Assembly (NCBI GenBank): GCA_000720995.1
Contig: JOEL01000011.1
Coordinates: 117,995-181,994 of the forward strand
Source: Streptomyces celluloflavus
GTDB lineage: Bacteria > Actinomycetota > Actinomycetes > Streptomycetales > Streptomycetaceae
DNA: 64,000 bases
Direction: 5' to 3'
The translations under genes and the position numbers were made by a program. This document shows positions 6,202 through 64,000 of the stretch, one piece after another (within the stretch, counting starts at the first letter, position 1; each line of letters starts with the position of its first letter). The notes under the pieces were generated by a model that saw only the letters and a program-made list of their open reading frames with translations, had not been told where the DNA came from and ran no database searches.

Positions 6202-8195
6202 CGCTCACGACCACCGCCGTCCTCGTCCCCCTGCTGCCCTTCCTCGGGGCCGTCGCGGGCTTCCTGCTGGGGCGCCGGCACCCCGGTTTCGTCCGGCCGC
6301 TGGCCGTGCTGCCGACGCTCGCCGCCGCCCTGCTCGCCATCGCCGTCGCCTTCGGGCAGGGCGGCGGCACGGCCACCGACGTCGCGACCCGGCTCACCCC
6401 GACCGGCTCGGTCCCCATCGACCTGGCCCTGCACATCGACGGCTTCGCCGCGCTCATCGGCGTACTCGTCGGCGTGGTCGCGAGCTGTGTGCAGATCTAC
6501 TCCACCGGCTATCTGCGCGACGACCCGCGCTACCCCTCCTACGCCGCGCTGGTCTCTCTCTTCACCTCCGCGATGCTGCTCGTCGTCTACACCGGCGATC
6601 TGATGGTGCTGCTGGTCGGCTGGGAAGTCATGGGCATCTGCTCGTACTTCCTCGTCGGCCACTACTGGGAGACCGAGGCCGCCCGCGCCGCCTCCCTCAA
6701 GGCATTCCTCGTCACCAAGCTCGGCGATGTCCCCTTCCTCTTCGGCATCTTCGCGCTCGCCGCCGACACGGGCACCTTCCGCATCACCGGCATCCTCAGC
6801 CACGTAGCCCGGGACGGCCTGGACCACCCCACCCTGATCGCGCTCCTCCTGCTGGCGGGTGTCGCGGGCAAGTCGGCGCAGTTCCCGCTGCACACCTGGC
6901 TCCCGGACGCGATGGCCGGTCCGACCCCCGTCTCGGCGCTCATCCACGCCGCGACGATGGTGGCGGCCGGTGTCTATCTCGTGGCCCGGCTCCTCCCCGT
7001 CTTCGCCGCCTCCGCGGCCGCGCTCGTCGTGCTCGCCGTCCTGGCCGCGGTCACCATGGTCGGCTCCGGTCTGGCGGCCCTCGCCCAGGACGACATCAAA
7101 CGCGTGCTGGCCTATTCGACCGTCGGCCAGCTCGGCTACATGACCGGCGCGCTGGCCGTCGGAGACCGCGGCGCCGCCGTCTTCCACCTCCTGTCGCACG
7201 GCGCCTTCAAGGCCCTCCTCTTCCTCTGCGCGGGCGTGATCATCCACGCCGCGGGCACCAACTCGCTGGCCGCCATGTCCCGGATGAGCGGCCTGGCCCG
7301 GCGCATCCCGGACGCCTTCTGGACGGGCACCGTCGCACTGCTCGCGCTCGCCGCGATCCCGCCGTTCGCCGGCTTCTTCTCCAAGGAAGCCGTCCTGGGC
7401 GCCGCCGAGCACGCCACCACCGGTGCGGTGCCCGGCATCCCCGGCGCCGTCGGCTGGACCGTACTGATCTCCGGCCTGGTCACCGCCCTCCTCACCGCGG
7501 CCTACGCCACCCGCCTGTGGCTGCTCGCCTTCAGGGGCAGCGGCGCCGAGGCCCCCGACCACGGCAGGCAGCCGCTCGCCATGAACGCCGTGCTGTGGGT
7601 GCTCTTCATCCCCACGGCCGCGCTCGGCCTGGGCGCCCCCTTCCTGCCCGACTGGTTCGACGGGCGCTCGCTCACACCGACCCTGACCACCTCCGTCCTG
7701 GCCACCGGCGCCGCCCTCATCGGCGGCCTGGTCACCTACGCGGCCTGGCGGCACTCCATCGCGCTGGCCGCCCGGACGCCCATCGGGGTGGCCGTCGCCG
7801 CCCCGGACGCGTCCCCCGGGCTCTCCGAGGAACTGGCCATCGCCACCCACACCCCGCCCTACGCGGACATCGCGGGCGCCCAGGACCCGGCCGACCCGAG
7901 CCGCCTCCTCCTCGGCCCGCTGCGCCGCCACGCGGCCACCGGCTTCCACCTCGACGCCGTCTACACCGCCCTGTTCGTCCGGCCCGTCCGCGCCGCCGCC
8001 ACGCTCGTCCGCTTCCTCGACCGCGAGGTCATCGGCACCTACGTGCGCGGCGCGGGCACCGCCCCCGGCTGGCTGGGCGCCGCCGTCCGCCGCGCCCAGA
8101 CCGGCAACGTGCAGAGCTATCTCGGCGCGCTGCTCGCGGGCTCGCTCGTCCTGGCCGTCGCCGCCGTCCTCGTCGCCACGGGCACGGGAGCCTGA
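6198..8195 (+). CDS. nuoL: NADH-quinone oxidoreductase subunit L (antiporter-like)
   Basis: A 665-residue multi-helix protein, the distal proton-pumping subunit with the lateral helix. Family features include [17 protein letters not shown] (with the pumping Glu), [31 protein letters not shown] and [21 protein letters not shown]. The GTG start overlaps the nuoK stop by four bases. Length is close to the usual 610-670. The C-terminal region after residue 530 is less conserved. Confidence 0.94.
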
Positions 8196-8198
8196 CCG

Positions 8199-8291
8199 AT
8201 GCCGCACACTCCCGGGGCACGCACCCCGCACCCCCAGCCGACCCCCCTCGCGGCCGGGCTCGCCGGAGCCGAACCCCTGAGGAGCGCCTGA
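8199..8291 (+). CDS. Possible 30-codon ORF between nuoL and nuoM
   Basis: An ATG four bases after the nuoL stop opens a short Pro/Ala-rich frame that ends four bases before the nuoM GTG. It fills the only real gap in an otherwise overlapping operon, so it may just keep ribosomes loaded for nuoM. No recognisable domain and no strong ribosome site; it may be chance. Confidence 0.15.
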   Translation: MPHTPGARTPHPQPTPLAAGLAGAEPLRSA

Positions 8292-8294
8292 CCC

Positions 8295-9914
8295 GTGAAC
8301 CCCACCGCTCTGCAACTCCTCCTCGCGGCACTCGTCGTGCTCCCCCTGCTGGGCGCGGTCGGCGCCCTGCTGCCGGCCCCGCCCGGACTGCGGGGCCGCG
8401 GCCCCGACCAGGCCGTACTGCGCCACGGTGTGACCGTCACCGGCGCCGTCCTCGCCGTCGCGATCGCGCTGGCCGCCGGCTTCGACCACGGCCATCCCGG
8501 CCGTATGCAGGCCACCACGGACATCAGCTGGATCCCGGCCCTGGGCATCCGCATCCACCTAGGCGTCGACGGCATCTCGCTCCCCCTTGTCGTCCTGACC
8601 GCGCTGCTGGCCTTCCTCTGCGCGCTCTACAGCTACTTCCGGATGCCAACGGGCCCGTCACCCAAGGCATTCGTGGCCCTGCTGCTCCTTCTGGAGGCCG
8701 GCACCCTCGCCACCTTCGCCGTCCTCGATCTCGTGCTGTTCTTCCTCGCCTTCGAGACGGTCCTCATCCCGATGTACTTCCTGATCGCCCGCTGGGGCGG
8801 TGCGCAACGGCAGGCGGCCGCCTGGAAGTTCATCCTCTACACGGTGCTCGGCTCCGTCGTGATGCTGCTCGGCCTCCTCCTCATCGGCGTGAAATCCGGC
8901 ACTTTCGACATGGTGGCACTCGCCACTGACAACGGCCCGAAAGCCCAGCTCAGCCACACGGTTCAGCTCGTCGCGGTGCTCGCCGTCGGCATCGGACTGG
9001 CCGTGAAGACCCCGCTGTGGCCGCTGCACAGCTGGCTGCCGGACGCGCACACCGCCGCCCCCACCGTCGGCTCGGTGCTGCTGGCCGGTGTCCTGCTGAA
9101 GATGGGTACGTACGGGTTCGTCCGTATCGCGCTGCCCATCACGCCCGACGGGATGCACACCTTCGCGCCGTACCTCGGCGCGTTCGCCGCCGTCGGCATC
9201 GTCTACGGATCGCTCGCCTGCCTCGCCCTGGTCCGCAAGGGCGCCAAGGGCGACCTCAAGCGGCTGATCGCGTACAGCTCCGTCGGCCATATGGGCTTCG
9301 TCCTGCTCGGCATCGCCACCATGACCCCCACCGGCGTCAACGGCGCGCTGTTCGCCAACATCGCGCACGGCCTGATCACCGGTCTGCTCTTCTTCCTGGT
9401 CGGCGCCCTCAAGGACCGCTGCGGCAGCACCGACCTCGACCGGCTCGCGGGCCGCACCGGAGCGGCCCTGTACGGCAGGGCGCCGCGCTTCGGGGGGCTG
9501 CTCGCCTTCGGCGCCGTCGCCTCCCTGGGCATCCCCGGTCTGGCCGGCTTCTGGGGCGAGATGCTCGCCATGTTCGGTGCGTTCCGGCCGGCCGCGGGCC
9601 TCAGCCGCCCCGCCTTCCTCACCTTCATGGTGCTGGCCGGCCTCGGCACCCTGCTGACCGCCGCCTACCTGCTGCTCGTCGTCCGCCGCGTCTGCATGGG
9701 CGGCACCCCGGCCGCGACACCGGCCGGGCCCGCGCCCGACAGCGCCCCCGTTCCCGCACCCGCACCCGCCCCCGCTGTCGCGGATATCGCGGGCTACGAA
9801 TACGCGGCCTGGACCCCCCTGACCGTCCTCACCGTCCTCGCCGGACTCTGGCCCGCGGCCCTCCTCGGCCTCACCGACCCGGCCGTCCAGCAGCTCCTCG
9901 GAGGCGGTAAGTGA
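8295..9914 (+). CDS. nuoM: NADH-quinone oxidoreductase subunit M (antiporter-like)
   Basis: A 539-residue antiporter-like subunit with about 14 helices. Typical motifs: LVLFFLAFETVLIPMYFLI (channel Glu), KTPLWPLHSWLPDAHTAAPTVGSVLLAGVLLKMG and KGDLKRLIAYSSVGHMGFVLLG. GTG start with GAGGAGCG upstream. There is an Ala/Pro-rich insert near residues 475-495. The stop overlaps the start of nuoN by one base. Confidence 0.94.
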   Translation: MNPTALQLLLAALVVLPLLGAVGALLPAPPGLRGRGPDQAVLRHGVTVTGAVLAVAIALAAGFDHGHPGRMQATTDISWIPALGIRIHLGVDGISLPLVVLTALLAFLCALYSYFRMPTGPSPKAFVALLLLLEAGTLATFAVLDLVLFFLAFETVLIPMYFLIARWGGAQRQAAAWKFILYTVLGSVVMLLGLLLIGVKSGTFDMVALATDNGPKAQLSHTVQLVAVLAVGIGLAVKTPLWPLHSWLPDAHTAAPTVGSVLLAGVLLKMGTYGFVRIALPITPDGMHTFAPYLGAFAAVGIVYGSLACLALVRKGAKGDLKRLIAYSSVGHMGFVLLGIATMTPTGVNGALFANIAHGLITGLLFFLVGALKDRCGSTDLDRLAGRTGAALYGRAPRFGGLLAFGAVASLGIPGLAGFWGEMLAMFGAFRPAAGLSRPAFLTFMVLAGLGTLLTAAYLLLVVRRVCMGGTPAATPAGPAPDSAPVPAPAPAPAVADIAGYEYAAWTPLTVLTVLAGLWPAALLGLTDPAVQQLLGGGK

Positions 9915-11509
9915 TGACGTCCCTGGTCCAGTCCGTCGACTGGCTCGCCATCGCGCCGCCCACCCTCACCGCGGCCGCCGCCCTGGTGGTGCTCGTCACC
10001 GACCTCTTCCTCCCCGCGGCCAGGAAGCCGCTGCTGGGCTGGATCGCGACCGGCGGGCTCGCCCTCGCCGCACTCTCGCTGCTGCCCCTCCTGGGCGGCC
10101 ACCGCGCCACCTTCTGCCTCGCCCAGCCGTCGCCCGCCACCGCCCCGGCAGGCGGGCATTCCGCGCTCGCGGCGGAGGTGTGCAGCTATGTGGCCGACCC
10201 GTTCGCCCTGGTCATCCAGTTCCTGGTGCTGGCCGGCGCGCTGCTGACCGCGCTGCTCTCCGTCGACGCCGTCAAGGAGCACCGCCTGCCGGCCGGCGAG
10301 TACTGGTTCCTGCTGCTCTCCTCGGCGGCCGGCGCGGCCCTGCTGCCCGCCTCCCGGGACCTCGCCACCCTCGTCATCGCCCTCGAAGTCGCCTCACTGC
10401 CCGCCTTCGCCCTGGTCGGACTGCGGCGCGGCGACCGGCTCTCCTCGGAGGCCGCCCTCAAGTTCTTCCTGTCCTCGGTCGTCGCCACCGCCGTGACGCT
10501 GCTCGGCGTGAGCTTCCTGTACGCGGCCACCGGGAGCCTCCACCTCTCCCAGGTGGCGCACACCCTCACCGCCCTGCCGGACCCCCGGCTGGCCACCCTG
10601 GCGGCCGCCGGCGTCGCGCTCACCCTCGTCGGCTTCGCCTTCAAGACCGCGGCCGTCCCGTTCCACTTCTGGGTGCCCGACACCTACGTCGGCGCGCCGC
10701 TCCCCATCGCCGCGTACCTCTCCGTCGTCGGCAAGGCCGTCGGCTTCTCCGGGCTGATCCTCGTCACAGTCCGGGGCTTCCCCTCGTACGCGCACGTCTG
10801 GGGTCCGGCGATGGCCGTCCTCGCCGCGCTCACCATGACCGCGGGCAACGTCGCCGCCCTCCGCCAGGACCCGGACCGCCGGCACGGCGCCGTCCGGCTG
10901 CTCGCCTGGTCCTCGGTCGGCCAGGCGGGCTACCTCCTGGTCCCGATCGCGGCGGCCGGTTACACCGGCGATCCTGCGCACGCCATCGGCGCCACCGTCG
11001 CCTACGCCCTGATGTACGCGGCGGTGAACCTCGGCGCCTTCGCCGTCGCCGCCCTGGTGGCCCGTACGCGCCCCGCCAACCGCATCGCCGACTACCGGGG
11101 CCTGTACGCCCGGCATCCGCTTGCCGCCCTCGCCCTCGGCTTCTTCCTGCTCTGCCTCGCCGGTCTGCCGCCGGGTGTCATCGGCCTCTTCGCCAAGGTC
11201 ACGGTCTTCTCCGCGGCCGTCGACGCGGGGCTGGGCTGGCTCGCCGTCGTCATGGCCGTCAACGTCGCGATCGCGCTCTACTACTACCTCCAGTGGACCG
11301 CGGTCCTCTTCCGGGGAGCCGGGGAAGGCGCCGAACGGCCAACGGGAGAGCCGGTGGGAGAGCCCGCGGAAGCCGCCGCCGCGGCGCCGCTCCGGGCCGC
11401 GGTCCCGGCCACACTGACCACCGCCATCGCCCTCGCCGCCGTCCTCGGCATCGCCCTCTCCGGCGCTCCGCAGCTCGTCCTCCGCTTCGCCTCGGGCGCC
11501 CTCCTCTAG
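9914..11509 (+). CDS. nuoN: NADH-quinone oxidoreductase subunit N (antiporter-like)
   Basis: A 531-residue antiporter-like subunit, last gene of the cluster. Conserved parts include LATLVIALEVASLPAFALVG, FAFKTAAVPFHFWVPDTYVGAPLPIAAYLS and RLLAWSSVGQAGYLLV. The ATG at 9914 (TGATG overlap with nuoM) has GGAGGCGG at good spacing; a GTG at 9911 is the alternative. The operon ends here, about 210 bases before htpX. Confidence 0.93.
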   Translation: MTSLVQSVDWLAIAPPTLTAAAALVVLVTDLFLPAARKPLLGWIATGGLALAALSLLPLLGGHRATFCLAQPSPATAPAGGHSALAAEVCSYVADPFALVIQFLVLAGALLTALLSVDAVKEHRLPAGEYWFLLLSSAAGAALLPASRDLATLVIALEVASLPAFALVGLRRGDRLSSEAALKFFLSSVVATAVTLLGVSFLYAATGSLHLSQVAHTLTALPDPRLATLAAAGVALTLVGFAFKTAAVPFHFWVPDTYVGAPLPIAAYLSVVGKAVGFSGLILVTVRGFPSYAHVWGPAMAVLAALTMTAGNVAALRQDPDRRHGAVRLLAWSSVGQAGYLLVPIAAAGYTGDPAHAIGATVAYALMYAAVNLGAFAVAALVARTRPANRIADYRGLYARHPLAALALGFFLLCLAGLPPGVIGLFAKVTVFSAAVDAGLGWLAVVMAVNVAIALYYYLQWTAVLFRGAGEGAERPTGEPVGEPAEAAAAAPLRAAVPATLTTAIALAAVLGIALSGAPQLVLRFASGALL

Positions 11510-43346: not shown

Positions 43347-43375
43347 TGGACATCAGTGTGCCAAGTGGCTACACT
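43347..43375 (+). promoter_or_regulatory. rpoBC promoter candidate
   Basis: TGGACA-N17-TACACT, close to the housekeeping consensus, leaves a leader of about 155 bases before rpoB. The rest of the 626-base rplL-rpoB gap shows the terminator and no gene. Confidence 0.65.
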
Positions 43376-43536
43376 GACCCTTTGCGCTGCCTGTTAGCTG
43401 CTCCCTGCCCGTCACCAGGGGCATGCCCGAGCCCGAGCACTGCCGGAAGATCCGCCCTGACCTGGGCCTTCCCTAGATCGCTCGATTCGGGACCGGTACG
43501 CGCGTAGTGAGTCCGAGCCCTCGGAAGGACCCCCTC

Positions 43537-47022
<3,486 letters not shown>

Positions 47023-47030
47023 CGGGTCTG

Positions 47031-47058
47031 GCCGGGGCCTCCTGACGGAGGCCCCGGC
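47031..47058 (+). other. Strong hairpin between rpoB and rpoC
   Basis: 12-base perfect stem (GCCGGGGCCTCC with its complement) and TGAC loop, eight bases after the rpoB stop, with no T-run. May act as an attenuator or processing/stability element; a second short stem (TCGGGGG/CCCCCGA) lies at 47112-47127, close to the rpoC start. Confidence 0.45.
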
Positions 47059-47144
47059 TAACCCCGGACCCCCAGACCATGATTGAGACTCGACCCTGGC
47101 AGCGACAATTGTCGGGGGAACCCCCGAAGGTGGGATTGACGACA

Positions 47145-51044
<3,900 letters not shown>

Positions 51045-51075
51045 GCGCCGCCGGTTCGTCCGGATGCGCGTGGTA

Positions 51076-51113
51076 CGCAGGGCGGTCACCCCGATGGGGG
51101 TGGCCGCCCTGCG
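51076..51113 (+). terminator. Terminator after rpoC
   Basis: 17-base stem with one G-U pair, 32 bases after the rpoC stop. Confidence 0.75.
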
Positions 51114-51292
51114 GCGTTGCGGGGCGGACGCCGGCCCCCTTCCGTGCGGGGTGCCGCGGGTCCGTACCGGTGCCCCGGGCCGCCGTGTCCGGCGGTTTCG
51201 TGCCCTGAGGGAACTTGGCCTCCCTCCATTGCGTCTGTGATGAGAGGATGAGGGCTCAGGATGAGGGCTCACTATGGAGCGGGGGAGGTCGC

Positions 51293-52096: not shown

Positions 52097-52299
52097 GAGC
52101 GTGAGGAATGGGGGAACTGGGGGACGGTGACATTGGGTTACCGTTTTGCGCCCGCCGTGCGCATGCGGGATGCGGCACGTGAAATACGGCATTGCTTATC
52201 CCAATCATTGGACACCCGGCTGACCGACCGTCGCGCCATGCGCCGGGCACGGGCGGCTTGCGGGCAATTGGGTGGATTCACAGGGGAGGTCGTGTACCG

Positions 52300-52731
52300 G
52301 TGTCAGTTGACCAGGCGTGGATCGATCAGGTTTTACCTCTTGTGGGCGGGGCGGATGCGGCGGCGCTGGACCGTACGGCAGCCGCGCTCCGTGACCTGCT
52401 GTTCGCCGTGGAGCGCCTGCAGAAGGCCGGGCAGGGTCAGTTTCAGGACAATCTTCAGGTCCGTGAGCAGTGCTCGGTGGAGCGGTACGGCGGTCCGCGG
52501 GCCCCTGATACGCGCCTGCCGGTCGACACCCTGACACCCAGGGAGCGCGAGGTGCTCCGGCTGGTTGTGACCGGGCTGCCCAACCGGCTGGTCGCCCGCC
52601 GGCTGGAGATCGCCGAGCGTACGGTCAAGACCCATCTGCACTCCATCTACCGCAAGCTGGGGGTCTCGGGGCGCACCGAGGCCACCGCTCTCATCCTGCG
52701 CCAAGAGGTCCAGAAGGCGCGGGCCAGCTGA
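52300..52731 (+). CDS. LuxR-family transcriptional regulator (HTH only)
   Basis: 143 residues. The C-terminal LuxR helix-turn-helix (about 77-140) is DTLTPREREVLRLVVTGLPNRLVARRLEIAERTVKTHLHSIYRKLGVSGRTEATALI. The N-terminal 70 residues form a short helical region without a receiver or ligand domain. GTG with GGGGAGG at 52283-52289. It is convergent with the E2 gene, four bases apart, at the border of the biosynthetic cluster; it may control that cluster. Confidence 0.8.
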   Translation: MSVDQAWIDQVLPLVGGADAAALDRTAAALRDLLFAVERLQKAGQGQFQDNLQVREQCSVERYGGPRAPDTRLPVDTLTPREREVLRLVVTGLPNRLVARRLEIAERTVKTHLHSIYRKLGVSGRTEATALILRQEVQKARAS

Positions 52732-52735
52732 ACGA

Positions 52736-53965
52736 CTACGGGACAGCGGTCGCGGGCCGCCCCTCGGCCCGCTGTATGACGTGCCGCAGGAAGGCGGCCG
52801 CTGTCTCGCCGTCGCATACGCGATGGTCGAAGGTGAGCGAGAATGTGGCCACCTTGCGCACGGCGAGCTGTTCCTCGACGACCCATGGCCGGCTCGCGAT
52901 GGATCCGATGCCGAGCATTGCCGCTTCGGGGATATTGAGCAGCGGTGTGGCTCCGGCTACCCCGAATATTCCGTAATTGTTCAGCGTGAAAGTACCGCCG
53001 CTCATATCGGCCGGTGCGAGGGTTCCCGCGCGGGCCGCGCCGACGAGTTCGTGAATGGCCGGGACGAGGGAATCCGTATCGTACTGCTGGGCATTCCGCA
53101 GTACGGGGACGACCAGACCGGTTTCCGCCTGTACGGCTATGCCCAGGCCGATGCCGGGGAATTGCAGAATCTCCCGGCGTGCGGTGTCCACGTGGGCATT
53201 CAGCCGCGGGTAGAGCGCCAGTGCCTCGATGCAGAACGTGCCGAACAGCGCCGGCAGGCCGGTGCGGCAGGGCCGGTGCCGGTCGTGGAGCGCGTCGCGC
53301 CGGGCGAGGAGGCCGGTGACGTCCGCCTCCTGCCAGATGGTCACGCGGGGGATGTCCTGATGGCTGCGGGTGAACTTCTCCGCGGCCAGCAGGCTTCGGC
53401 CACGCAGCGGCAGCCGGACCGGTGCGCCGGCGGCGGGCGTGCGGAGCGCGATCGCGGCCTCGACGTCGGCGCGCAGGATCAGCCCGCCGGACCCGCTGCC
53501 GCGCAGTGCGGTGAGCGTGATGCCGTGGTCGCGGGCGAGTTTGCGGACGACCGGGGAGACGACCGCGGGCCGTGCTCCCGTACCGGTGGGGCGGATCGCG
53601 GGGGCCGCCGGGCGAGGCACCGGGCGGGGTGCCGGGAGGACGGCGGCGGGGCCGTAGCCGACGAGCACCGGGCCGTCGGGCTCCGGGGGCCCGGCCGCCT
53701 CGGGTGCGGCCGCGACGGTGACCAGCGGGGCGCCCACCGGGACGAGGTCGCCCGGTTCGCCGTGCAGCGCGGTGACCACGCCCGCGTACGGGCAGGGCAG
53801 ATCGAGTGCCGTCTTGGCGGTCTCGACCTCGGCGACCGGCTGGTCCGCGGTGATCCGGTCGCCGACGGCCACCAGCCAGCGGACCAGCTCCGCCTCGACC
53901 AGGCCCTCGCCGAGGTCGGGGAGCGCGAAGCGCAGGTCCCCGGTGGCCGTGGGTCCGCCGTTCAT
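52736..53965 (-). CDS. 2-oxo acid dehydrogenase E2 (dihydrolipoamide acyltransferase)
   Basis: 409 residues. One lipoyl domain with K51 in VETAKTALDLP, a Pro/Ala linker, a peripheral subunit-binding domain (PVVRKLARDHGITLTALRGSGSGGLILRADV) and a catalytic domain with DHRVCDG (H381, D385). Transfers an acyl group from E1 to CoA. No E3 gene is nearby, so the common lipoamide dehydrogenase would serve. The ATG overlaps the E1beta stop (ATGA). It is the last gene of the five-gene operon. The acyl substrate cannot be read from sequence; context suggests arylpyruvate. Confidence 0.9.
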   Translation of the reverse strand: MNGGPTATGDLRFALPDLGEGLVEAELVRWLVAVGDRITADQPVAEVETAKTALDLPCPYAGVVTALHGEPGDLVPVGAPLVTVAAAPEAAGPPEPDGPVLVGYGPAAVLPAPRPVPRPAAPAIRPTGTGARPAVVSPVVRKLARDHGITLTALRGSGSGGLILRADVEAAIALRTPAAGAPVRLPLRGRSLLAAEKFTRSHQDIPRVTIWQEADVTGLLARRDALHDRHRPCRTGLPALFGTFCIEALALYPRLNAHVDTARREILQFPGIGLGIAVQAETGLVVPVLRNAQQYDTDSLVPAIHELVGAARAGTLAPADMSGGTFTLNNYGIFGVAGATPLLNIPEAAMLGIGSIASRPWVVEEQLAVRKVATFSLTFDHRVCDGETAAAFLRHVIQRAEGRPATAVP

Positions 53966-54960
53966 GAGGTGCTCCCGGTCTCGGGCCACTGGAGCGCCGC
54001 CACGGCTTCGAGGACGCGCGGCACATCGGGCAGGTGGTGCTGTTCCAGCAGGGGTGGCGGGTAGGGCAGGTCGAGGCCGGTGACCCGGAGGACCGGTGCC
54101 TCCAGGTGGTGGAAGCAACGCTGGCTCACCCGGGCCGCGATCTCCGCACCGAAGCCCGCGAACCCGGCGGCCTCGTGGACGACGACCGCGCGGCCGGTCC
54201 GCCGGACACTGGCCGTCACGGTCTCGTCGTCGAAGGGGACCAGCGTCCGCAGGTCGACGACCTCCAGGTCCCATCCCTCGGTGTCCGCCGCGGCCTCGGC
54301 GGCCGCCAGCGCGACGGGGACGGCGGGCCCGTACGCGATCAGCGTCGCGGAGGTGCCGGGGCGGCGTACCGCGGCGCGGCCGAGGGGCTCGGCGGGGCGC
54401 TCCCGGGCCACCTCGCCCTTGTGCCGGTAGAGCCGCTTCGGCTCCAGGAACACCACCGGGTCGTCGGAGGCGATGGCCGCCCGCAGCAGGGAGTAGGCGT
54501 CCTGGGCGGTGGCGGGCGCCACGACGTGCAGGCCGGGGGTGTGGACGTAGTACGCCTCGGAGGCGTCGCTGTGGTGCTCCACGGCGCCGATGCCGCCGCC
54601 GTAGGGGATGCGGATGACCAGGGGGAGGGTGAGTTCCCCGCGGGTGCGGTTGCGGAGCTTGGCGATATGGCTGACGACCTGTTCGAAGGCGGGGTAGGCG
54701 AAGGCGTCGAACTGCATCTCGATGACCGGGCGCAGGCCATACATCGCCATGCCGACCGCGGTGCCCGCGATGCCCGCCTCGGCGAGCGGTGCGTCGAAGC
54801 AGCGCTGCGGGCCGAAGGCGGCCGCGAGGCCGTCGGTCACCCGGAAGACTCCGCCGAGCGGTCCGACGTCCTCGCCGTAGACGAGGACCCGGTCGTCCTC
54901 GCGCATCGCGTCGGACAGCGCGGCGTTGAGTGCCTGGGCCATGGCCAGCTGCGGCGTCAT
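53962..54960 (-). CDS. 2-oxo acid dehydrogenase E1 beta subunit
   Basis: 332 residues of the transketolase central plus C-terminal type: LVYGEDVGPLGGVFRVTDGL, FDAPLAEAGIAGTAVGMAMYGLRPVIEMQFDAFAYPAFEQ, EHHSDASEAYYVHTPGLHVVAPAT and VVDLRTLVPFDDETV. Resembles branched-chain/pyruvate-type E1beta and PglC of the pristinamycin phenylglycine pathway, which has the same role. Overlaps the E1alpha stop and the E2 start by four bases each. Confidence 0.9.
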   Translation of the reverse strand: MTPQLAMAQALNAALSDAMREDDRVLVYGEDVGPLGGVFRVTDGLAAAFGPQRCFDAPLAEAGIAGTAVGMAMYGLRPVIEMQFDAFAYPAFEQVVSHIAKLRNRTRGELTLPLVIRIPYGGGIGAVEHHSDASEAYYVHTPGLHVVAPATAQDAYSLLRAAIASDDPVVFLEPKRLYRHKGEVARERPAEPLGRAAVRRPGTSATLIAYGPAVPVALAAAEAAADTEGWDLEVVDLRTLVPFDDETVTASVRRTGRAVVVHEAAGFAGFGAEIAARVSQRCFHHLEAPVLRVTGLDLPYPPPLLEQHHLPDVPRVLEAVAALQWPETGSTS

Positions 54961-56066
54961 GAGGCGTGCCTCCCCAGGCGGGCGGCGAGTTCGGCGGCCT
55001 GTTCGCGCAGTTGCGGGGTGGGGGCCGCGTAGACGTGGTCGAAGAGCTCCAGCGGATCGAGGGCCGGTGGCTGCCGCATCCGGTCGCGCAGGCCGGCGGC
55101 GAGGGCCTCGGCCTCGGCGGTGTACGCGGCGGCGGTGGCGTCGTCCAGCAGCCCCTCGGCGCGCAGATGGGCCGCCAGGCGGTCCAGCGGGTCGCGGCCG
55201 GACCAGACCGCGACCTCTTCGGCGCTGCGGTAGCGGGTGGGGTCGTCGGCGCTGGTGTGCGGGTTCATGCGGTAGGTGAGGGCCTCGATGAGGGTGGGGC
55301 CGCCGCCCGCGCGGGCGCGTTCGACGGCCTCGGTGACGGTGGTGTACACCGCCAGCGCGTCGTTGCCGTCGACCAGTGCGGCCCGCATGCCGTAGCCGAT
55401 GGCCTTGTGGGCGAGGGTGGGGGCGGCGGTCTGCGCGGCGAGCGGGACGCTGATGGCGTACTGGTTGTTCTGGACCAGGAAGACGGTGGGCACCCGGTGG
55501 ACGGCGGCGAAGTTGCACGCCTCGTGGAAGTCGCCCTCGCTGGTGCCGCCGTCGCCGATGAACGACAGCGAGACGAGGTCGTCCCCGGCCAGCCGGGCCG
55601 CGTGCGCCAGGCCCACGGCGTGCGGGCACTGGGTCGCCAGCGGGGTGCACTGCGGTGCGGTGCGGTGCCGGCGGACGGAGTAGCCGCAGTGCCAGGAGCC
55701 GCGCATCAGCGTCAGCACCTCGAAGGGGTCGATACCGCGGGCGACGAGGGCGACGCTGTCGCGGTAGGTGGGGAAGAGCCAGTCCGTCTCGCGCAGCGCC
55801 ATCGTGGCGCCGATCTGGCACGCCTCCTGGCCGTACGAGGAGGGGTAGACGGCCAGTGCGCCCTGCTTGCCCAGGGCGGTGGCCTGGCGGTCGAACTGGC
55901 GGCCGAGCACCATCCGCCGGTAGAGCTCGCGGCGCAGCCCGGCGTCGGGCGGGGTGCCGGTGCCCACCCACCGTCCCGCGGCGTCCAGCAGGCGGACCGG
56001 TTCCGCGCCGGGCAGCATCTCGTGTGTGCCCGGTGGCGCGGGGCCGGGGCGGCTGGTGACGGACAT
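54957..56066 (-). CDS. 2-oxo acid dehydrogenase E1 alpha subunit (ThDP-dependent)
   Basis: 369 residues. The thiamine diphosphate motif runs from GDG (171-173) to NN (200-201) in FIGDGGTSEGDFHEACNF and VFLVQNNQYAISV. It decarboxylates a 2-oxo acid and transfers the acyl group to E2-lipoate. The ATG has GGAGG upstream on the minus strand. The E1alpha/E1beta/E2 set lies 59 bases after the aminotransferase gene in the same direction. Confidence 0.9.
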   Translation of the reverse strand: MSVTSRPGPAPPGTHEMLPGAEPVRLLDAAGRWVGTGTPPDAGLRRELYRRMVLGRQFDRQATALGKQGALAVYPSSYGQEACQIGATMALRETDWLFPTYRDSVALVARGIDPFEVLTLMRGSWHCGYSVRRHRTAPQCTPLATQCPHAVGLAHAARLAGDDLVSLSFIGDGGTSEGDFHEACNFAAVHRVPTVFLVQNNQYAISVPLAAQTAAPTLAHKAIGYGMRAALVDGNDALAVYTTVTEAVERARAGGGPTLIEALTYRMNPHTSADDPTRYRSAEEVAVWSGRDPLDRLAAHLRAEGLLDDATAAAYTAEAEALAAGLRDRMRQPPALDPLELFDHVYAAPTPQLREQAAELAARLGRHAS

Positions 56067-56125
56067 GGCGGGGACCTCCGGGAGATGACGGGGACGGCTG
56101 GGCACGGCCGGTACGGAATCCGCGG

Positions 56126-57460
56126 TCACCGGGCGCGGCACTCCTCGTCGACCAGCGCCTTGAGCCGGTCCAGCCCTTCGTCGATGCGTTCCGGGGTGAT
56201 CCGGCTGTAGGACAGGCGCAGCTGCCGGTGGCCGCCGCCGCCCGCGTAGAAGTGGTGCATGGGCATCCACAGCACGCCGTGCCGCCGGGCGGAGCGTGCC
56301 AGCAGTTCGTCGTCCACGCGGAACGGGACGGTGAGGACGACGAAGAAGCCGCCGCCCGGGACGTTCCAGTCGATGCCCAGGCGGGCGCGGACCGCCGCCG
56401 GCCAGCGCTTGTCGAGGCCGTTGAGGAGGCAGTCGAGGTGGTGCCGGTAGATCTCCGTCTCGCGCCGGTTGGCGAGCGAGAGGCGGCAGTCGTTCTCCAG
56501 CAGTTTGCCGCCGATGACGGCCTGGGCGAGGGGGGAGGTGTTGACGGTGACCATGCTCTTCAGCGTCGAGAGCTGATCGGCCAGCAGACCGCCGGGGCCG
56601 GCGCCGGTCACCGGCTGGTCGGCGACCGCGAAGCCGACCCGGGCGCCGGGCAGACCGGTCTTGGCGAGCGAGCCGAGGTAGACGACGCGGCGCCGGGTGT
56701 CCAGCGCCTTCAGGGTCGGCGGCCGCGTCTGGGCACGGGTGTAGAGGCCGTAGGGGTTGTCCTCCAGCAGGAGGATGTCCGCCTCTTCGGCCAGCGCGAG
56801 GAGGCGGTGCCGGGTCGCCATGTCGAGGCTGCGGCCGGAGGGGTTGGAGAAGTCGGGGACGAGGTAGAGGGCGCGGGGCCGCAGGCCGTCCGCGCGGGTC
56901 CGGCGGAGCTGCTCGGTGAGGTCGTCCAGGTCGATGCCGAGCGGGCCTTCGCGTACCGGCACCACCGTCATGTCGAGCAGCCGGGCCGCCCCCGTCAGGC
57001 CGACGTAGGACGGGGACACGGTCAGCACCACGTCCCGGGCGTCGCGGCGCAGCGCGCGCAGGACCAGGAGGATGGCCTCCTGGCACCCCACGGTGACGAC
57101 GAGGGACTCCGGGTCGACGTGGATGTTCTCGTCGCGCGCCAGATAGGTGGCGAGGAGGTCGGTGATCACGCCCTTGGTCCGGCCGTACTGGAACAGCGTC
57201 CGGGTCACCTGCGCCTCGTCCATGCCCCGGTCGTGGGCGAGGTGGTCGCAGAACGTCCGCAGATGGCGGTGGAGGGACTCGGTGTCGAAGTACCCCTCGT
57301 ACGGGCTGCCCGAGGCGAAGGAGATGGCGTCCGGGTGGCGCTCGGCGATCTCGCTGAGCATGTTCATGGACGCCATCACCGGGTCGCCGAGGGAGGCGTG
57401 CAGGTCCGCGAGGGACAGGGTGACGGTCCCGGCGGGCGCCGGCGGCCCGGGGAGCGTCAC
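56126..57460 (-). CDS. PLP aminotransferase, HpgT/PglE-like
   Basis: 444 residues. Features: MASMNMLSEIAERHPDAISFASGSPYEGYF, LFQYGRTKGVITDLLATYLARDENI, VTVGCQEAILLVLRALRRDARDVVLTVSPSYVGLTGAARLLDM, PDFSNPSGRSL, LLLEDNPYGLYTR and the PLP lysine (about 262) in YLGSLAKTGLPGARVGF. This pattern is that of (hydroxy)phenylglycine aminotransferases (HpgT) and the related PglE. The GTG start overlaps the preceding stop by GTGA. It would turn an arylglyoxylate into the arylglycine. Confidence 0.82.
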   Translation of the reverse strand: MTLPGPPAPAGTVTLSLADLHASLGDPVMASMNMLSEIAERHPDAISFASGSPYEGYFDTESLHRHLRTFCDHLAHDRGMDEAQVTRTLFQYGRTKGVITDLLATYLARDENIHVDPESLVVTVGCQEAILLVLRALRRDARDVVLTVSPSYVGLTGAARLLDMTVVPVREGPLGIDLDDLTEQLRRTRADGLRPRALYLVPDFSNPSGRSLDMATRHRLLALAEEADILLLEDNPYGLYTRAQTRPPTLKALDTRRRVVYLGSLAKTGLPGARVGFAVADQPVTGAGPGGLLADQLSTLKSMVTVNTSPLAQAVIGGKLLENDCRLSLANRRETEIYRHHLDCLLNGLDKRWPAAVRARLGIDWNVPGGGFFVVLTVPFRVDDELLARSARRHGVLWMPMHHFYAGGGGHRQLRLSYSRITPERIDEGLDRLKALVDEECRAR

Positions 57461-58809
57461 TTCGGCCTCCGCCGGTGTGCCGACCAGGTGCGTTCCAGGT
57501 TGTGGATCAGCGCATCGCTGTGGGCGCAGTACGCCTGGTCGCGGGCGTAGTGGGCCATGTACGTACGGAACAGGTCGAGGGGTTCGGCGCCCAGGCGCAT
57601 GGCCCGGCGGTTGGCGCGCACGCTCGGCAGACCGCAGGCCATCAGCTGGTCCACGGCGCGGGCGATGGCGTCGTCCATACCGGCCGGGTCGACGACCTCG
57701 GCGACCAGCCGTCTGCCGTCCGGGCTGTCCACCGGGAAGTCGCGGTTGAAGAGCACCGCCTCGCGGGCCGGTCCCTCGCCGAGGAAGCGCGGCAGGCGCA
57801 TCACACCACAGCCGGGGATGATGCCCTCCTTGCCGGCCGGGAGGTTGAAGTACGCGCCGGTCTCCGCGACCACCCGGTCCAGGACCAGCAGGAACTGGCA
57901 GCCGCCGCCGATGGCGAAGGAGTCGACCGCGCCGATCCACGGCTTCTCGTGCCGGCTCTCCAGTGCGTCGGGGCGCGGCGGTGCGAGGTCGTGGCCGCGG
58001 TAGAGCTTGTTGACGACGCCGAGTTCGCGCTCCAGGAAGAAATCGGTGAGCGAGATACGGCCGTGGTAGAGGTGCGTCAGGTTGATGCCCGAGCTGAACA
58101 CCCGGCGGCCCGCGTACTTCGGATGGGTGGCGGGACCGCCGCGCAGCACTCCCGCCTCGATCCGGTCGTCCAGCAGGACGAGGTCGACGGCCGTCTCCAG
58201 GGCGGCGGTTGACGCATCGTCCTCGGCGTTGAGGCAGCTGTGGTTCTGCACCGTCACATGGCCGACGTTGTCCTTGCGCTGGACGTGCACCACACCGAGG
58301 TCGACCGCGTCGTCGAGCAGCAGGGTGTCGAGCAGGTCGAGGGCCTCCTGGCGGGGCTGGGCCATCGCGTGCAGCAGGTGGTGGCCGGTGCGCGGCCGGG
58401 CCAGCACCTGGGCGAGGAAGATGCCCTGGGCGATCTCCAGGCTGTCGCGGTCCTTCAACGGCAGCTGATGTGCGGCCAGTTGGGCGCGGGAGGGGACCAG
58501 TTCGGGGAACCGGAGCGCCACCGCGTCGACGAGTTCGCCGACCCGCAGCGAGGTGCGGAAGCCGTTGGTCACCGTCTCGTAGACGGCCTCGGCGTGCTCC
58601 GTCAGGAACGCCTCGCGTATCGCGTGGCCCCGGGTCAGCAGGGCCTCGGCGGCCGTCTGCTCCTCCGGTGTGCGCGCGGGCTTGGGGGGCAGGTCCGCCA
58701 ACTGCTCGCGCAGGGCCGCCAGTTGCCGGGCGGCGACTTCGTGATCGGCGGCCGGACCGCCCGTGAAAACCGGTGCTGGTTCCGACTTCCTGCCCGCCAT
58801 ATTCGCCAC
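57457..58809 (-). CDS. DpgC-like cofactor-free dioxygenase
   Basis: 450 residues from GTG 58809, which has AAAGGGACGG upstream; ATG 58800 would give 447. The first 200 residues form the helical extension typical of DpgC, and the rest is a crotonase fold: VTVQNHSCLNAEDD, RRVFSSGINLTHLYHGRISLTDFFLERELGVVNKLYRG, and SFAIGGGCQFLLVLDRVVAE with the conserved Gln near residue 300. DpgC converts (3,5-dihydroxyphenyl)acetyl-CoA with O2 to the arylglyoxylate and CoA without metal or flavin. The usual partners DpgA, DpgB and DpgD are not encoded nearby, so another arylacetyl-CoA is the likely substrate. Confidence 0.85.
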   Translation of the reverse strand: MANMAGRKSEPAPVFTGGPAADHEVAARQLAALREQLADLPPKPARTPEEQTAAEALLTRGHAIREAFLTEHAEAVYETVTNGFRTSLRVGELVDAVALRFPELVPSRAQLAAHQLPLKDRDSLEIAQGIFLAQVLARPRTGHHLLHAMAQPRQEALDLLDTLLLDDAVDLGVVHVQRKDNVGHVTVQNHSCLNAEDDASTAALETAVDLVLLDDRIEAGVLRGGPATHPKYAGRRVFSSGINLTHLYHGRISLTDFFLERELGVVNKLYRGHDLAPPRPDALESRHEKPWIGAVDSFAIGGGCQFLLVLDRVVAETGAYFNLPAGKEGIIPGCGVMRLPRFLGEGPAREAVLFNRDFPVDSPDGRRLVAEVVDPAGMDDAIARAVDQLMACGLPSVRANRRAMRLGAEPLDLFRTYMAHYARDQAYCAHSDALIHNLERTWSAHRRRPK

Positions 58810-58935
58810 CAGTTCAACCGTCCCTTTCTGCCCTGCGCAATGAATTCCGACGGAAGAACTCCAGCCGCATGGGATACGAATGCGCCGTAGTCGGAGCATG
58901 GGGCATACCGGGATTCCGGTAAATGCAACCTATGG

Positions 58936-58960
58936 ACTAGACGCGCGGTGTGGGTCTAGT
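58936..58960. repeat. Inverted repeat ACTAGAC-N11-GTCTAGT
   Basis: Seven-base arms; the right arm continues into CTAGTACC, the complement of GGTACTAG at 59192-59199. Confidence 0.55.
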
Positions 58961-59176
58961 ACCAAGGTTGGCCGGAGGCCGCACCGAGGATTCGCCGGCG
59001 AGGGCGGGTGTCCGGGGGAAGCGGAATGCGTCGTCCGTGGAGCCGGCGGAGGCCGGACCGACGGACGCGGAGAGGCAATTCCGCGAGATCCGGGGGTGGC
59101 AGGGGGGTCGGCCGGGCTCGCCGTCGGACCGCCGTGGGCCGGGCTTGCGGTGCGGCCGCGTCCGGGTAAACGCAAC

Positions 59177-59206
59177 CAAGGTTCTAGTCCTGGTACTAGA
59201 ACCTTG
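59177..59206. repeat. Inverted repeat with 11-base perfect arms
   Basis: CAAGGTTCTAG and CTAGAACCTTG with an eight-base spacer, followed by TTTC. It could be an operator or, for the minus strand or plus strand, a terminator. The low GC content of the stem is unusual here. Confidence 0.65.
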
Positions 59207-59441
59207 TTTCTATACATGCCGAGAACTCTGCGGCGGGCCTGCCGATAAGGTTCTGGCCAGGAGCGGTTGTGGCTGCTTCACTGATCCGCCGTGGCAGCGT
59301 TTCGGGGGCAATGGCGTACGGCGCGTATCCACGGTTTCCCATTGCATTTGCCTGTCGCCGGTCGGCGATTCTCCGGTAATTGATTCCGCAGGTCATTCGG
59401 GCAGCAATCAAGGTTCCAGAAGGTTCCAGGGGGTTTGAGCG

Positions 59442-62400
59442 GTGGTTTCGGTGACTGGCCAGCAGGGCGCTGACGCGCGTGGGACCGGCAGGACGCCCGC
59501 AGGCGGGGCCGCGACGCTCCCGGCGCTCTTCGAGGCACAGGCGGCACGGACTCCGCAGCGGATCGCGGTGACCGCCGCGGACACCGAACTCACCTACGCG
59601 GAGCTCAACGCGCGGGCCAACCGCCTCGCGCACCACCTGATCGCGCAGGGCGTCGGCCCCGAGCGGACGGTCGGCCTGATGTTCTCCCGCTCCGCGGAGC
59701 TGGTCGTCGCGGTGCTCGGCGTGCTCAAGGCGGGCGCGGCCTACGTCCCCCTCGACCCCGACTACCCGGCCGAGCGCCTCGCGCAGACCCTCGCCGACGC
59801 CCGCCCCGCCCTGCTGATCGGCGAGACCGACCGGGGGCTCACCACCGGCATCCCGCAGATCGTGCTCGACGCGCCGGCCACCGCCGCCCTGATCGCCGCG
59901 CGGCCCGACCACGACCCCACCGAGGAGCACCGCGGCGCACCGCTGCTGCCCGGCACCGCCGCGTACGTCATCTACACCTCCGGCTCCACCGGCCGACCCA
60001 AGGGCGTGGTGATCCCGCACCACAACGTGCTGCGCCTGTTCTCCGCCACCGAGCAGTGGTTCGGCTTCGGCGAGGAGGACGTCTGGACCCTCTTCCACTC
60101 CTACGCCTTCGACTTCTCGGTCTGGGAGCTGTGGGGCGCCCTGCTGCACGGCGGGCGCCTGGTCGTGGTGCCGTTCGAGACCAGCCGCGCACCCGGCAGG
60201 TTCCGGGCGCTGCTGGCGGACGAGGGCGTCACCGTCCTCAACCAGACCCCGTCGGCCTTCTACCAGCTGATGCAGGCCGAGCGGAGCGCCCCCGCACCGG
60301 CGCCGCCGCTGCGCCTGCGCACCGTGGTTTTCGGCGGCGAACCCCTCGACCCGGCCCGGCTCGCCGACTGGTACCGCCACCACCCGGACGACGCCCCGCG
60401 CCTGGTCAACATGTACGGCATCACCGAGACCACGGTGCACGTCACCTACGCCGCCCTCGACCGGTCCGACGCCGCCCCGGGGGCGGCCGGCGGTATCGGC
60501 CTGCCCATCCCCGACCTGCGCGCCTACGTCCTCGACGGGCTGACGCCCACCGCCCCCGGCGAGGCCGGCGAACTGTACGTCGGCGGCGCCGGCCTCGCCC
60601 GCGGCTACCTCGGCGCGCCCGGCCTGACCTCGGAACGCTTCCTCGCCGACCCGTTCGGCCCGGCGGGCAGCCGGATGTACCGCACCGGCGATGTCGTCCG
60701 CCGGCTCCCCGACGGCGGCCTGGAGTTCGTCGGCCGCGCCGACAGCCAGGTCAAGGTCCGCGGTTTCCGTATCGAACCGGGCGAGATCGAGGCCGTACTC
60801 GCCGCACACCCGCAGGTCGGCCAGGCCGCCGTCGTCGTCCGGGAGGACCGCCCCGACGACAAGCAGCTGGTCGCCTATGTCGTCCCCGCCGACGACGGCA
60901 CCGCCGCCTCGGACGAGACCGACACCGCGACCCGCGAACAGGTCGATGAATGGCGCGAGATCTTCGACGCCCAGTACGAGGGCGCCGCCGCGGCCACCTT
61001 CGGCGAGAACTTCGTCGGCTGGAACAGCAGTTACGACGGCACACCCATCCCGCTGGACGAGATGCTCCAGTGGCGCGACGCCACCCTCGACCGCATCCGG
61101 CAGCTGCGCCCGCGCCGGGTGATGGAGATCGGCGTCGGCACCGGCCTCCTCCTGGCCCATCTGGCACCCGACTGCGAGACCTACTGGGGCACCGACCTGT
61201 CCCCCCGCGTCATCGAGGCGCTGCAGGAACAGCTCGCCGACCGCCCCGGCCTGGCCGCGAAGCTCACCCTGCGCGCCCAGGCCGCCGACGACACCACCGG
61301 CCTGCCCGAAGGCCATTTCGACGTGGTGGTCATCAACTCCGTCAGCCAGTGCTTCCCGAGCGGCGCCTACCTCGCCGACGTGCTGCGCAAGGCCGTCTCG
61401 CTGGCCGCACCCGGCGGCGCCGTCTTCGTCGGCGACGTACGCAACCTCAGCTCGCTGCGCTCCTTCCGCAGCGCCATCGAGCTGCGCCGGGCGCGCCTCG
61501 ACGACGACCCGGCCCGGGTCCGCCAGGCCATCGAGCGGGCCCTGGTGCTGGAGAAGGACCTGCTCGCCGAACCGGAGTTCTTCACCGCCCTCGCCGCCGC
61601 CGACCCCACCGTCGCGGGCGTCGACATCCGGCTGCGGCGCGGCGCGCCGCACAACGAACTGACCCGGTACCGCTACGACGCGGTGCTGTTCAAGCGGGGC
61701 CGCCCCGTCCTGGACGCGACGCACGCCACCGGCACCGCCTACGGCCGGGACCTCGACGGCCTCGACGGCATCAAGGCCCTGCTCGGCGCGGACCACCCGG
61801 CGACGCCGCAGGGCCCGGCCGTGCTGCGGGTCACCGGGGTGCCCAACGCCCGGGTGGCGCCCGAGACGACGGCGATGCGCGCCCTCGACAAGGGCGAACC
61901 GCTCGCCCACGTACGGGAGCAGTTCACGCTCACCGCCGGTGTGGACCCCGAGGAGCTGCACGCGCTGGGCGAGGCGATGGGTTACCGCACCGAGATCACC
62001 TGGTCCGCCGCCGCGGCCGACCGGATGGACGTGATCTTCGTATCCCGCGTGGGCGCGGCGGCGGGGGACCGGGAGCCGGACCTGGTGGGCACCTACCTGC
62101 CCGCCACCCGGCCCCGCACCCCCGAGCGGCACGCGAACAACCCGGTCGCCACCCGCGGCAGCGGTGTCCTGCTGCACGAACTGCGCGACTACGCCAAGGA
62201 GCACCTGCCCGCCCACATGGTGCCCGCCGCCGTCCTGCGCATCGAACGGCTGCCGCTCACCGTCAACGGCAAACTGGACCGGCGTGCCCTGCCCGCCCCG
62301 GAGTTCGAGAGCGCCGGGGGCCGGGCGCCGAGGTCGGCGCGCGAAGAGGCGCTGTGCGGCCTGTTCCGCGAGGTGCTGGGCGTCGACGGCGTCGGCATCG

Positions 62401-64000
62401 ACGACAGCTTCTTCGACCTCGGCGGGCACTCCCTGCTCGCCACCCGCCTGGTCAGCCGGGTCCGCGCCGAGCTCGGCGTGGAGATGTCGATCCGGGTGCT
62501 CTTCGAGGCCCCCAGGGTGGCCGAGCTGGCCGAACGCCTGGACGCCACCACCCGCGCCCGCCTCCCCCTCACCGCCCGCCCGCGCCCGGAGCGGCTGCCG
62601 CTGTCCTCCGCCCAGCACCGGCTCTGGTTCCTGCACAGCCTGGACAAGGAGGCCGGCACCTACACGATTCCGTGGGCGCTGCGGCTGACGGGGCGGCTGG
62701 ACGCCGGGGCGCTGCGGGCGGCGCTCGGCGATGTGGTGGCGCGCCACGAGGTGCTGCGCACGGTCTTCCCGGAGGTGGACGGGGAGCCGTATCAGCTGGT
62801 GCTGGCGGCGGCAGACGCCCGGCCGGAACTGGACGAGATCGCCGGGCCCGCCTCGCTGGCCGGGCTCCGGCCCGTACTGGACGAGGCGGCCCGCCACCGC
62901 TTCAACCTCGCCACCGAACTGCCCGTCCGCGGACGGCTGTACCGGCTGGGGGAGAGCGGGGACGAGTTCGTTCTGCTGCTGCTGTTCCATCACATCGCGT
63001 GTGACGGGTGGTCGTATGCGCCGCTCGCCCACGATCTGATGGCGGCCTACGAGGCGCGGTGCGCGGGAGCCGCCCCCGAGCTGCCGGCACTGCCGGTGCA
63101 GTACGCCGACTACACCCTCTGGCAGCGGGAGCTGCTGGGGGACGAGAACGACCCGGAAAGTGTGCTCGCCCGGCAAGTCGCTTACTGGAAGGGGCAGTTG
63201 GCGGGTCTGCCGGAGCGGATCGAACTGCCGACGGACCGGCCTCGGCCGGCGGTCGCCTCACAGCGGGGCGACATGGTGCGCTTCGAGTGGGACGCGGAGC
63301 TGCACGGGAAGCTGAGTGAGCTGGCGCGGGCCGAGGGCGCGAGTCTGTTCATGGTGTTGCAGGCGGGCCTTGCGGTGCTGTTGTCGCGGTTGGGTGCCGG
63401 GGATGACATTCCGATCGGTATGCCGATCGCGGGGCGTACGGATGAGGCGCTGGACGATCTGGTCGGGTTTTTCGTCAATACGTTGGTGATGCGGACGGAT
63501 ACGTCGGGGAATCCGTCGTTCCGGGAGCTGCTCGGGCGGGTGCGGGAGACCGCTCTCGGTGCGTACGCAAACCAGGACGTGCCGTTCGAGCATCTGGTGG
63601 AGGTGCTCAACCCCGAGCGGTCGATGTCCCATCACCCGCTCTTCCAGGTGTCGTTGGCGGTCCAGAACGCCGCGGATGTGGAGCTGCGGGTGCCCGGACT
63701 GCGAATCGGTGCCCAGCTTTTGTCGAATGGTGGCACGCGTTTTGACGCTTTCTTCAGTGTGACGGAGAAGGTGGATGGTGTGGGTGGGCCGAGTGGGCTT
63801 TCGGGGTTTGTTGAGTTTTCGACTGATGTGTTTGATCGGGTGTCGGTGGAGCGGTTGGTGGGGCGGTTTGAGCGTGTGTTGCGGGCTGTGGTGATGGATG
63901 CGGGTGGTTTGTTGAGTGGGGTTGGTGTGTTGGGTGGGGTGGAGCGTGGGGAGTTGTTGGGTTTGGGGCGTGGTGGGGTTGTTTCGGGTGTGGTGGGTGG
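59442..64000 (+). CDS. Non-ribosomal peptide synthetase, A-MT-T-C... (3' partial)
   Basis: The frame is open to the end of the window (about 1520 codons). Order: adenylation domain (from residue 20; [11 protein letters not shown] near 176, NMYGITETT near 323, [11 protein letters not shown] near 440), a methyltransferase inserted before the end of the A domain (510-760, motif [15 protein letters not shown] near 559), the A10 [10 protein letters not shown] near 945, a carrier protein (LGGHS near 993) and a condensation domain (from 1048; HHIACDGWS near 1183). No C domain precedes the first A, so this is an initiation module. The pocket residues read as D-F-W-N-V-G-M-V-H-K, nearly the threonine code. 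The MT position suggests N-methylation. GTG at 59442 with CAGGGGG upstream; an in-frame TGA lies just before. Next module outside the window. Confidence 0.92.

Follow-up and report, generated by a model that had tools for sequence, protein, structure and literature searches.

The operon

The 64,000-nucleotide stretch of Streptomyces celluloflavus DNA analysed here (contig JOEL01000011.1, positions 117,995 to 181,994; hereafter the window) contains a five-gene operon on the minus strand at 52736-58809. It encodes an oxygenase, an aminotransferase and the E1alpha, E1beta and E2 components of a 2-oxoacid dehydrogenase. Read from the oxygenase to E2, the junctions between the genes are GTGA, a 59-base gap, ATGA and ATGA, and coordinates and domains agree with the initial annotation of the DNA, which had described the five genes as one unit. 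Each assignment is backed by Pfam and NCBIfam domain matches. The oxygenase (57457..58809, GTG start, with an alternative ATG start at 58899) has an ECH_1 domain and belongs to the crotonase-fold DpgC/PglA family of coenzyme A (CoA) ester oxygenases; the nearest solved structure is that of DpgC (5kag/2np9, E about 3e-97). The pyridoxal phosphate (PLP) aminotransferase (56126..57460) has an Aminotran_1_2 domain. E1alpha (54957..56066), with an E1_dh domain, and E1beta (53962..54960), with Transket_pyr and Transketolase_C domains, are counterparts of PglB and PglC of the pristinamycin phenylglycine operon. E2 (52736..53965) has lipoyl, E3-binding and 2-oxoacid_dh acyltransferase domains. Divergent from the operon is a nonribosomal peptide synthetase (NRPS) gene (59442..64000, plus strand).

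With considerable confidence, we propose that the operon supplies L-phenylglycine (L-Phg), a rare amino acid, to an NRPS cluster placed between rpoC and rpsL and directing a ribosome-blocking peptide antibiotic of dityromycin type. The proposal draws on observed features, namely the genes and their families, the gene row, the side of a family tree on which the oxygenase falls, adenylation (A) domain codes, the rpoC neighbour and residues of ribosomal protein S12; the catalytic steps, substrates and products are all predicted. E1alpha, E1beta and E2, together with the E3 of the host, would convert phenylpyruvate to phenylacetyl-CoA by oxidative decarboxylation. The oxygenase would add O2 at the alpha carbon and release CoA itself, as DpgC does, to give phenylglyoxylate, so that no PglD would be needed in the operon. 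The PglE-like aminotransferase would convert phenylglyoxylate to L-phenylglycine, which an arylglycine-type A domain of the NRPS (module 3, by comparison with Sphaerisporangium) would use. This is the chemistry of the initial annotation, from arylpyruvate through arylacetyl-CoA and arylglyoxylate to arylglycine, and it is the best reading of the predicted functions and a well supported one.

DpgC-family oxygenases in other genomes

Relatives of the oxygenase were found in 4 of 396 genomes across the phylum and in 65 of 392 within the genus, the window's own genome being included in both counts. The genus genomes gave 76 matches, of which 40 had their neighbourhoods examined (38 regions, one with two matches, plus the window) and 36 were left out. 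Gene surroundings were compared at 46 loci including the window, over stretches of about 11 to 25 kb (L, G and C numbers are our labels for loci, genomes and contigs). In a tree of 47 DpgC-family proteins, with a midpoint root used only for display, the 30 oxygenases linked to dpgA and dpgB and the 17 others, including that of the window, lie on opposite sides of a branch supported at 100/99. 

Eight of the 17 non-Dpg oxygenases were counted as streptogramin type, seven are accompanied by E1 and E2, and two by neither. The eight form one group (100/99) and include two incomplete gene rows, L062, which has no pglB, pglC or pglD match between its genes, and L073, which is cut by a contig end. 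The seven E1/E2-type oxygenases do not form one group (three changes). Of the 17 non-Dpg oxygenases, 13 share their gene row with E1alpha and E1beta. Among the 30 linked to dpgA and dpgB, E1 genes lie near only one, at L078, a locus holding both kinds of oxygenase. Because E1 genes recur beside non-Dpg oxygenases, the association of genes in the operon is not due to chance.

Does the operon belong instead to a true 3,5-dihydroxyphenylglycine (Dpg) pathway, with dpgA, dpgB and dpgD elsewhere in the genome? Such a pathway would account for the 419 bits that the window's oxygenase scores on the NCBIfam DpgC model, but this is below the cut-off of 530, as are the scores of the oxygenases from Streptomyces sp. 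NBC_01361 (496) and Sphaerisporangium melleum (517), and a dpgA/dpgB-linked DpgC reaches 557 bits (one protein scanned). In the tree, too, the oxygenase lies opposite the Dpg-linked proteins. DpgA neighbours of the 30 Dpg-type oxygenases are at least 64% identical, and the best match to this type III synthase in the window's genome is only 33% identical; as the initial annotation had expected, no dpg set was found in the genome. On the score, the tree and the DpgA match, the Dpg pathway was rejected, and we regard it as extremely improbable.

The residues E189, H222, R254 and Q299, which we take to be the active-site residues of DpgC, are kept in all 47 proteins. Residue 320 is Ala in every one of the 30 Dpg rows and is never Ala in the 17 others; residue 412 (our own count) is Phe in all 30 of the former and Tyr in all 17 of the latter. 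Both positions were chosen after a scan of all columns, and some column differences of this kind are expected from descent alone.

Several individual loci are of interest. At L078 (G417), dpgA, dpgB and a DpgC of the Dpg side adjoin a second oxygenase, of the other side, with E1, E2 and a PglE-like aminotransferase. At L062 (G415), counterparts of pglA, MbtH and pglE occupy 8169-11380. The oxygenases closest to that of the window are at L069 (G246; 2490-3764, 60%) and L070 (G500; 10016-11266, 55%). Both come after MbtH genes, near NRPSs with Thr-type codes, and no E1 or E2 match was found in the stretches searched. L089, on a plasmid of Streptomyces globosus, is a cluster for a ribosomally synthesized and post-translationally modified peptide of the pheganomycin family, with dpgA, dpgB, dpgC and an aminotransferase. 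G517 has two streptogramin-type oxygenase copies of equal score, at C1:224977 and C1:8306309, near both ends of an 8.5-Mb contig, which suggests terminal inverted repeats.

The pristinamycin phenylglycine operon

Plasmids of Streptomyces sp. NBC_01294 and NBC_01361 carry, in order, an NRPS, a DpgC-family gene, E1alpha, E1beta, an alpha/beta hydrolase, MbtH, a PLP aminotransferase and an NRPS; in NBC_01361, two LLM-class flavin oxidoreductases and metK come next. The NBC_01361 A-domain codes are presumably those for Thr, 2-aminobutyrate (Abu), Pro, Phe, pipecolate (Pip) and Phg. The gene order matches that published for pristinamycin, snbDE-pglA-B-C-D-mbtY-pglE-snaD, in which mbtY is said only to be embedded in the operon (PMC7089894), and the pglA position is held by the DpgC-family gene. 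This order, in the two named plasmids, points to PglA being a member of the DpgC family. In print, PglA is a 'Phg dioxygenase' in the text and a phenylglycine dehydrogenase in the gene table of one paper (PMC7089894), and a Phg dehydrogenase in another (PMC10685826).

By its sequence, the window's oxygenase is the predicted counterpart of PglA. It is 44% identical to the pglA-position protein, and the aminotransferase is 57% identical to the PglE-position protein. The initial annotation had proposed a new hybrid pathway in which a DpgC-like enzyme replaces PglA. This was rejected, because the pglA position itself is DpgC-family in both plasmid clusters. Its view that the gene set differs from known routes stands in part: the operon has an added E2, no PglD thioesterase was found within 52736-58809 and no MbtH match within the window, and the rest of the set matches the pgl operon. 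The window's route is most likely the known pristinamycin pathway to phenylglycine in rearranged form, and not wholly new.

Adenylation domains and the proposed peptide product

Contig C11 and the window end at the same point, which truncates the NRPS gene at 59442. Its first module has the domain order A-N-methyltransferase-thiolation (T)-condensation (C), with the code DFWSVGMVHK, which we take to be of Thr type. Contig C31 holds an NRPS end with C, A, T and thioesterase (TE) domains and methyltransferases, as well as four P450 open reading frames (ORFs), a type II thioesterase, a free A-peptidyl carrier protein (PCP) didomain, an O-methyltransferase, a thioesterase-like gene and a PhyH gene. 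Further NRPS modules are on the small contigs C101, C104 and C106. The initial annotation had the arylglycine made for the adjacent NRPS; the adjoining module has a Thr code, and the arylglycine-type A domain (DPYGLGLLCK) is on C101 (L124). On C106 (L126) there is an apparent condensation-T unit without an A domain, which is possibly an assembly fault, or may receive its substrate in trans from the free A-PCP didomain.

The NRPS of S. melleum has a Thr-type code with methyltransferase, DLYGWGGTFK, DIYGLGLLTK and a Pro-like code and, past a contig break, two DMGAVAA-type codes flanking a Val-like code with methyltransferase. Among 18 domains compared, a set that includes no known 4-hydroxyphenylglycine (Hpg) domain, its module-3 A domain (DIYGLGLLTK) finds its best match in the streptogramin Phg-position domain and vice versa (61%). 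An arylglycine specificity is clearer for this module than for the L124 domain of the window's genome. A domains were located with a hidden Markov model trained on five such domains from the window's genome, and wherever a gap falls at residue 278 the code letter is uncertain.

Dityromycin is a bicyclic decadepsipeptide (PMC4282715) and is said to contain L-Phg (PMC7089894). Its residues are elsewhere given as including N,N-dimethyl-Thr, N-methyl-Val and epoxy-dehydro-isoleucine, Phg being unmentioned in the part available (PMC5960728). The first module of the window's NRPS has both the Thr-type code and the methyltransferase domain for an N-methylated Thr, which fits the N,N-dimethyl-Thr of dityromycin. 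A 2025 preprint describes a putative dityromycin cluster, dty, in Streptomyces kasugaensis NBRC 13851, with a legend that lists a 2-oxoacid dehydrogenase, an enoyl-CoA-hydratase-family gene, P450s and a methyltransferase (PMC11761653). A search of the open-licence literature found no paper that assigns this operon to dityromycin as its source of phenylglycine.

Might the operon make Hpg rather than Phg? 4-Hydroxyphenylpyruvate is a close analogue of phenylpyruvate, and the code type D.Y..GLLC resembles what we take to be Hpg codes. The module-3 domain of S. melleum nevertheless pairs with the streptogramin Phg domain, within the limits of the 18 domains described, and dityromycin is said to hold Phg (PMC7089894); Hpg as the product is very unlikely.

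An equally slim chance attaches to modification of isoleucine, in which the 2-oxoacid dehydrogenase and the crotonase-family enzyme would form the epoxy-dehydro residue of dityromycin, as proposed for DtyA and DtyB in a preprint figure legend whose authors linked a cluster of this kind both to dityromycin and to a mass spectrum (PMC11761653). The combination of E1/E2, a DpgC-type oxygenase and an aminotransferase amounts to one-carbon chain shortening, which is needed to turn Phe into Phg but not Ile into the epoxy residue. That argument follows from the chemistry of DpgC. The same kinds of enzyme recur in streptogramin-type clusters. A better candidate for the Ile residue is the free A-PCP didomain (L123, 9074-10987), which lies beside P450s in both the window's genome and Sphaerisporangium and has the code DAFGIGAVFK, presumably Val/Ile-like. 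Phenylglycine supply fits better than isoleucine modification, and we think that the dty dehydrogenase and hydratase are counterparts of the window's operon, making phenylglycine.

Chromosomal site and ribosomal protein S12

The left chromosomal boundary of the cluster is rpoC (47079..51044, plus strand). The only rpsL found in the genome comes after the cluster genes on C31, followed by S7 and EF-G genes, by the look of their first residues. We infer across contigs that the cluster sits between rpoC and rpsL. In the five genomes examined, of the nine Sphaerisporangium genomes without the oxygenase, the distance from rpoC to rpsL is about 0.56-0.79 kb, and from this short spacing the cluster appears to have been inserted there.

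A related cluster is found in two Sphaerisporangium genomes. In S. melleum and sp. TRM90804 (L020 and L021), the oxygenase, E1alpha, E1beta and E2 lie beside rpsL. One contig runs from rpoC into a window-like NRPS and another from P450s, the oxygenase and E1/E2 to rpsL; the two contigs are presumably the ends of one cluster.

The S12 protein of the window's genome has Thr32, Lys55 and Ile78, which the dityromycin producer AM-2504 reportedly also has (PMC6763770). In 72 other Streptomyces, the same source counts Thr32 in 7, Lys55 in 2, both Thr32 and Lys55 in 2, and Ile78 in all. Other genomes of the genus in our set have Val32 and Arg55 in 8 of 8. In the two cluster-bearing Sphaerisporangium genomes, residue 32 is Asn and Arg55 is retained.

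Variation in the predicted phenylglycine supply

In a tree of E1beta (42 rows), the cluster copies are scattered among housekeeping-type paralogues, and for the seven E2-type rows the starred branches require three or more label changes, which may be gains or losses. The tree's long-branch warning concerns distant paralogues. E1beta of G417 lies inside a housekeeping-type group (96/95 with L184), and contig C17 of the window's genome encodes a paralogue 75% identical to the window's E1beta.

Amination varies as well. The window and G417 (L078) have PglE/HpgT-like aminotransferases that are 60% alike, and in G720 and G502 E2 is followed by a class IV aminotransferase (by Pfam in both, and by NCBIfam in G720). 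In the Sphaerisporangium loci L020 and L021, an ornithine-cyclodeaminase-family gene is found between the oxygenase and E1alpha. The models closest to the S. melleum protein are archaeal alanine dehydrogenase, ornithine cyclodeaminase and iminosuccinate reductase, all scoring far below their cut-offs. At G455 (L076), there was no aminotransferase among the homology matches or the two ORFs scanned.

Several observations weigh against phenylglycine supply to a dityromycin-type cluster. Relatives of the PglD-position protein (33-38%) are present at 5 of the 7 E2-type loci (L020, L021, L076, L077 and L079), directly upstream of the oxygenase at L077 and L079, and there is a 36% relative on C31 of the window's genome; these may be ordinary NRPS type II thioesterases or substitutes for PglD. 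Because the E1beta tree gives no single arylpyruvate clade, the substrate cannot be read from E1. The NRPS is divided among C101, C104, C106 and C31, which appear from their content and the S. melleum match to belong to one cluster. The L124 stretch is placed by similarity only (57% over 1879 aa to S. melleum modules 2-3), and its A domain by itself is nearly tied with non-Phg domains (best 506 versus 504 and 496 bits). Phg is placed in dityromycin by PMC7089894 alone, the available parts of other papers listing different residues without it. Finally, 3 of the 9 oxygenase-free Sphaerisporangium genomes share the Asn32 change in S12.

Two candidate markers were rejected on these grounds: E1beta does not mark the substrate, and the S12 change does not strictly mark the cluster. 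The Sphaerisporangium loci L159, L160 and L161 (G785, G782 and G786) have S12 with Leu29, Asn32 and Val34, no oxygenase match, and adjacent rpoC and rpsL, possibly through loss of clusters or a lineage-specific S12.

The comparisons can be drawn together in a broader proposal, to which we give about an even chance. Arylglycine supply would be modular, with a DpgC-family core that divides into a dihydroxyphenylglycine side and a putative phenylglycine side, E1/E2 recruited repeatedly from 2-oxoacid dehydrogenases of the host, and an amination step that has passed between PglE-type, class IV and ornithine-cyclodeaminase-family enzymes, of which the last would make phenylglycine by reductive amination; and dityromycin-type clusters would lie beside the gene for S12, their ribosomal target, in two bacterial families.

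Regulatory features and other reading frames

A LuxR-type gene with a GerE domain (52192..52731, plus strand, with a provisional start codon) is a possible cluster regulator. In the divergent intergenic region between the operon and the NRPS gene, there is a palindrome with 12-bp arms (59177..59206, plus strand), which reads CAAGGTTCTAGT-N6-ACTAGAACCTTG. Related 16-bp direct repeats lie at 58925, 59172 and 59404 (58925-59429). The palindrome and the repeats are possible regulator-binding sites. Long minus-strand ORFs at 43369-46617 and 47058-51272 were rejected as genes, having no family match, and the plus-strand ORFs there are rpoB and rpoC.

Comparison with known systems

A 2020 paper describes the Streptomyces pristinaespiralis genes as the only known natural phenylglycine pathway (PMC7089894). 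If our proposal is right, this pathway extends to a second class of antibiotic. It would point to the PglA family as DpgC-type oxygenases, against the printed 'dehydrogenase' (PMC10685826 and the table of PMC7089894), suggest a reason why PglD might be dispensable, and correct the published guess for the dityromycin cluster. It would also supply new phenylglycine-making enzymes, including an operon's own E2 and a possible reductive aminase. The position of the cluster beside rpsL leads to a hypothesis of target-linked self-protection, testable by comparing more genomes.

With the pgl operon, the window shares counterparts of the oxygenase, E1alpha, E1beta and the PglE-type aminotransferase, the same logical steps and attachment to an NRPS. 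It differs in having its own E2, of which there is none in the pristinamycin operon as described in the available text (PMC7089894), in the absence of PglD from the operon, and in gene order. The DpgC of vancomycin-type clusters is of the same protein family, with the presumed active-site residues kept, whereas the window's oxygenase has no adjoining DpgA or DpgB, lies on the other side of the tree and differs at residues 320 and 412.

The dty cluster, compared by its figure legend, is probably of the same type as that of the window, although in the preprint the role given to the dehydrogenase and hydratase is isoleucine modification and in our reading it is phenylglycine formation. The Sphaerisporangium loci L020 and L021 have relatives of the window's P450s, A-PCP didomain, type II thioesterase, oxygenase, E1alpha, E1beta and E2. 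They differ in having an ornithine-cyclodeaminase-family gene in the aminotransferase slot, and their phenylglycine genes are at the rpsL end rather than, as in the window, at the rpoC end. The operon is a known kind of pathway, in changed form, in a type of cluster already proposed in print.

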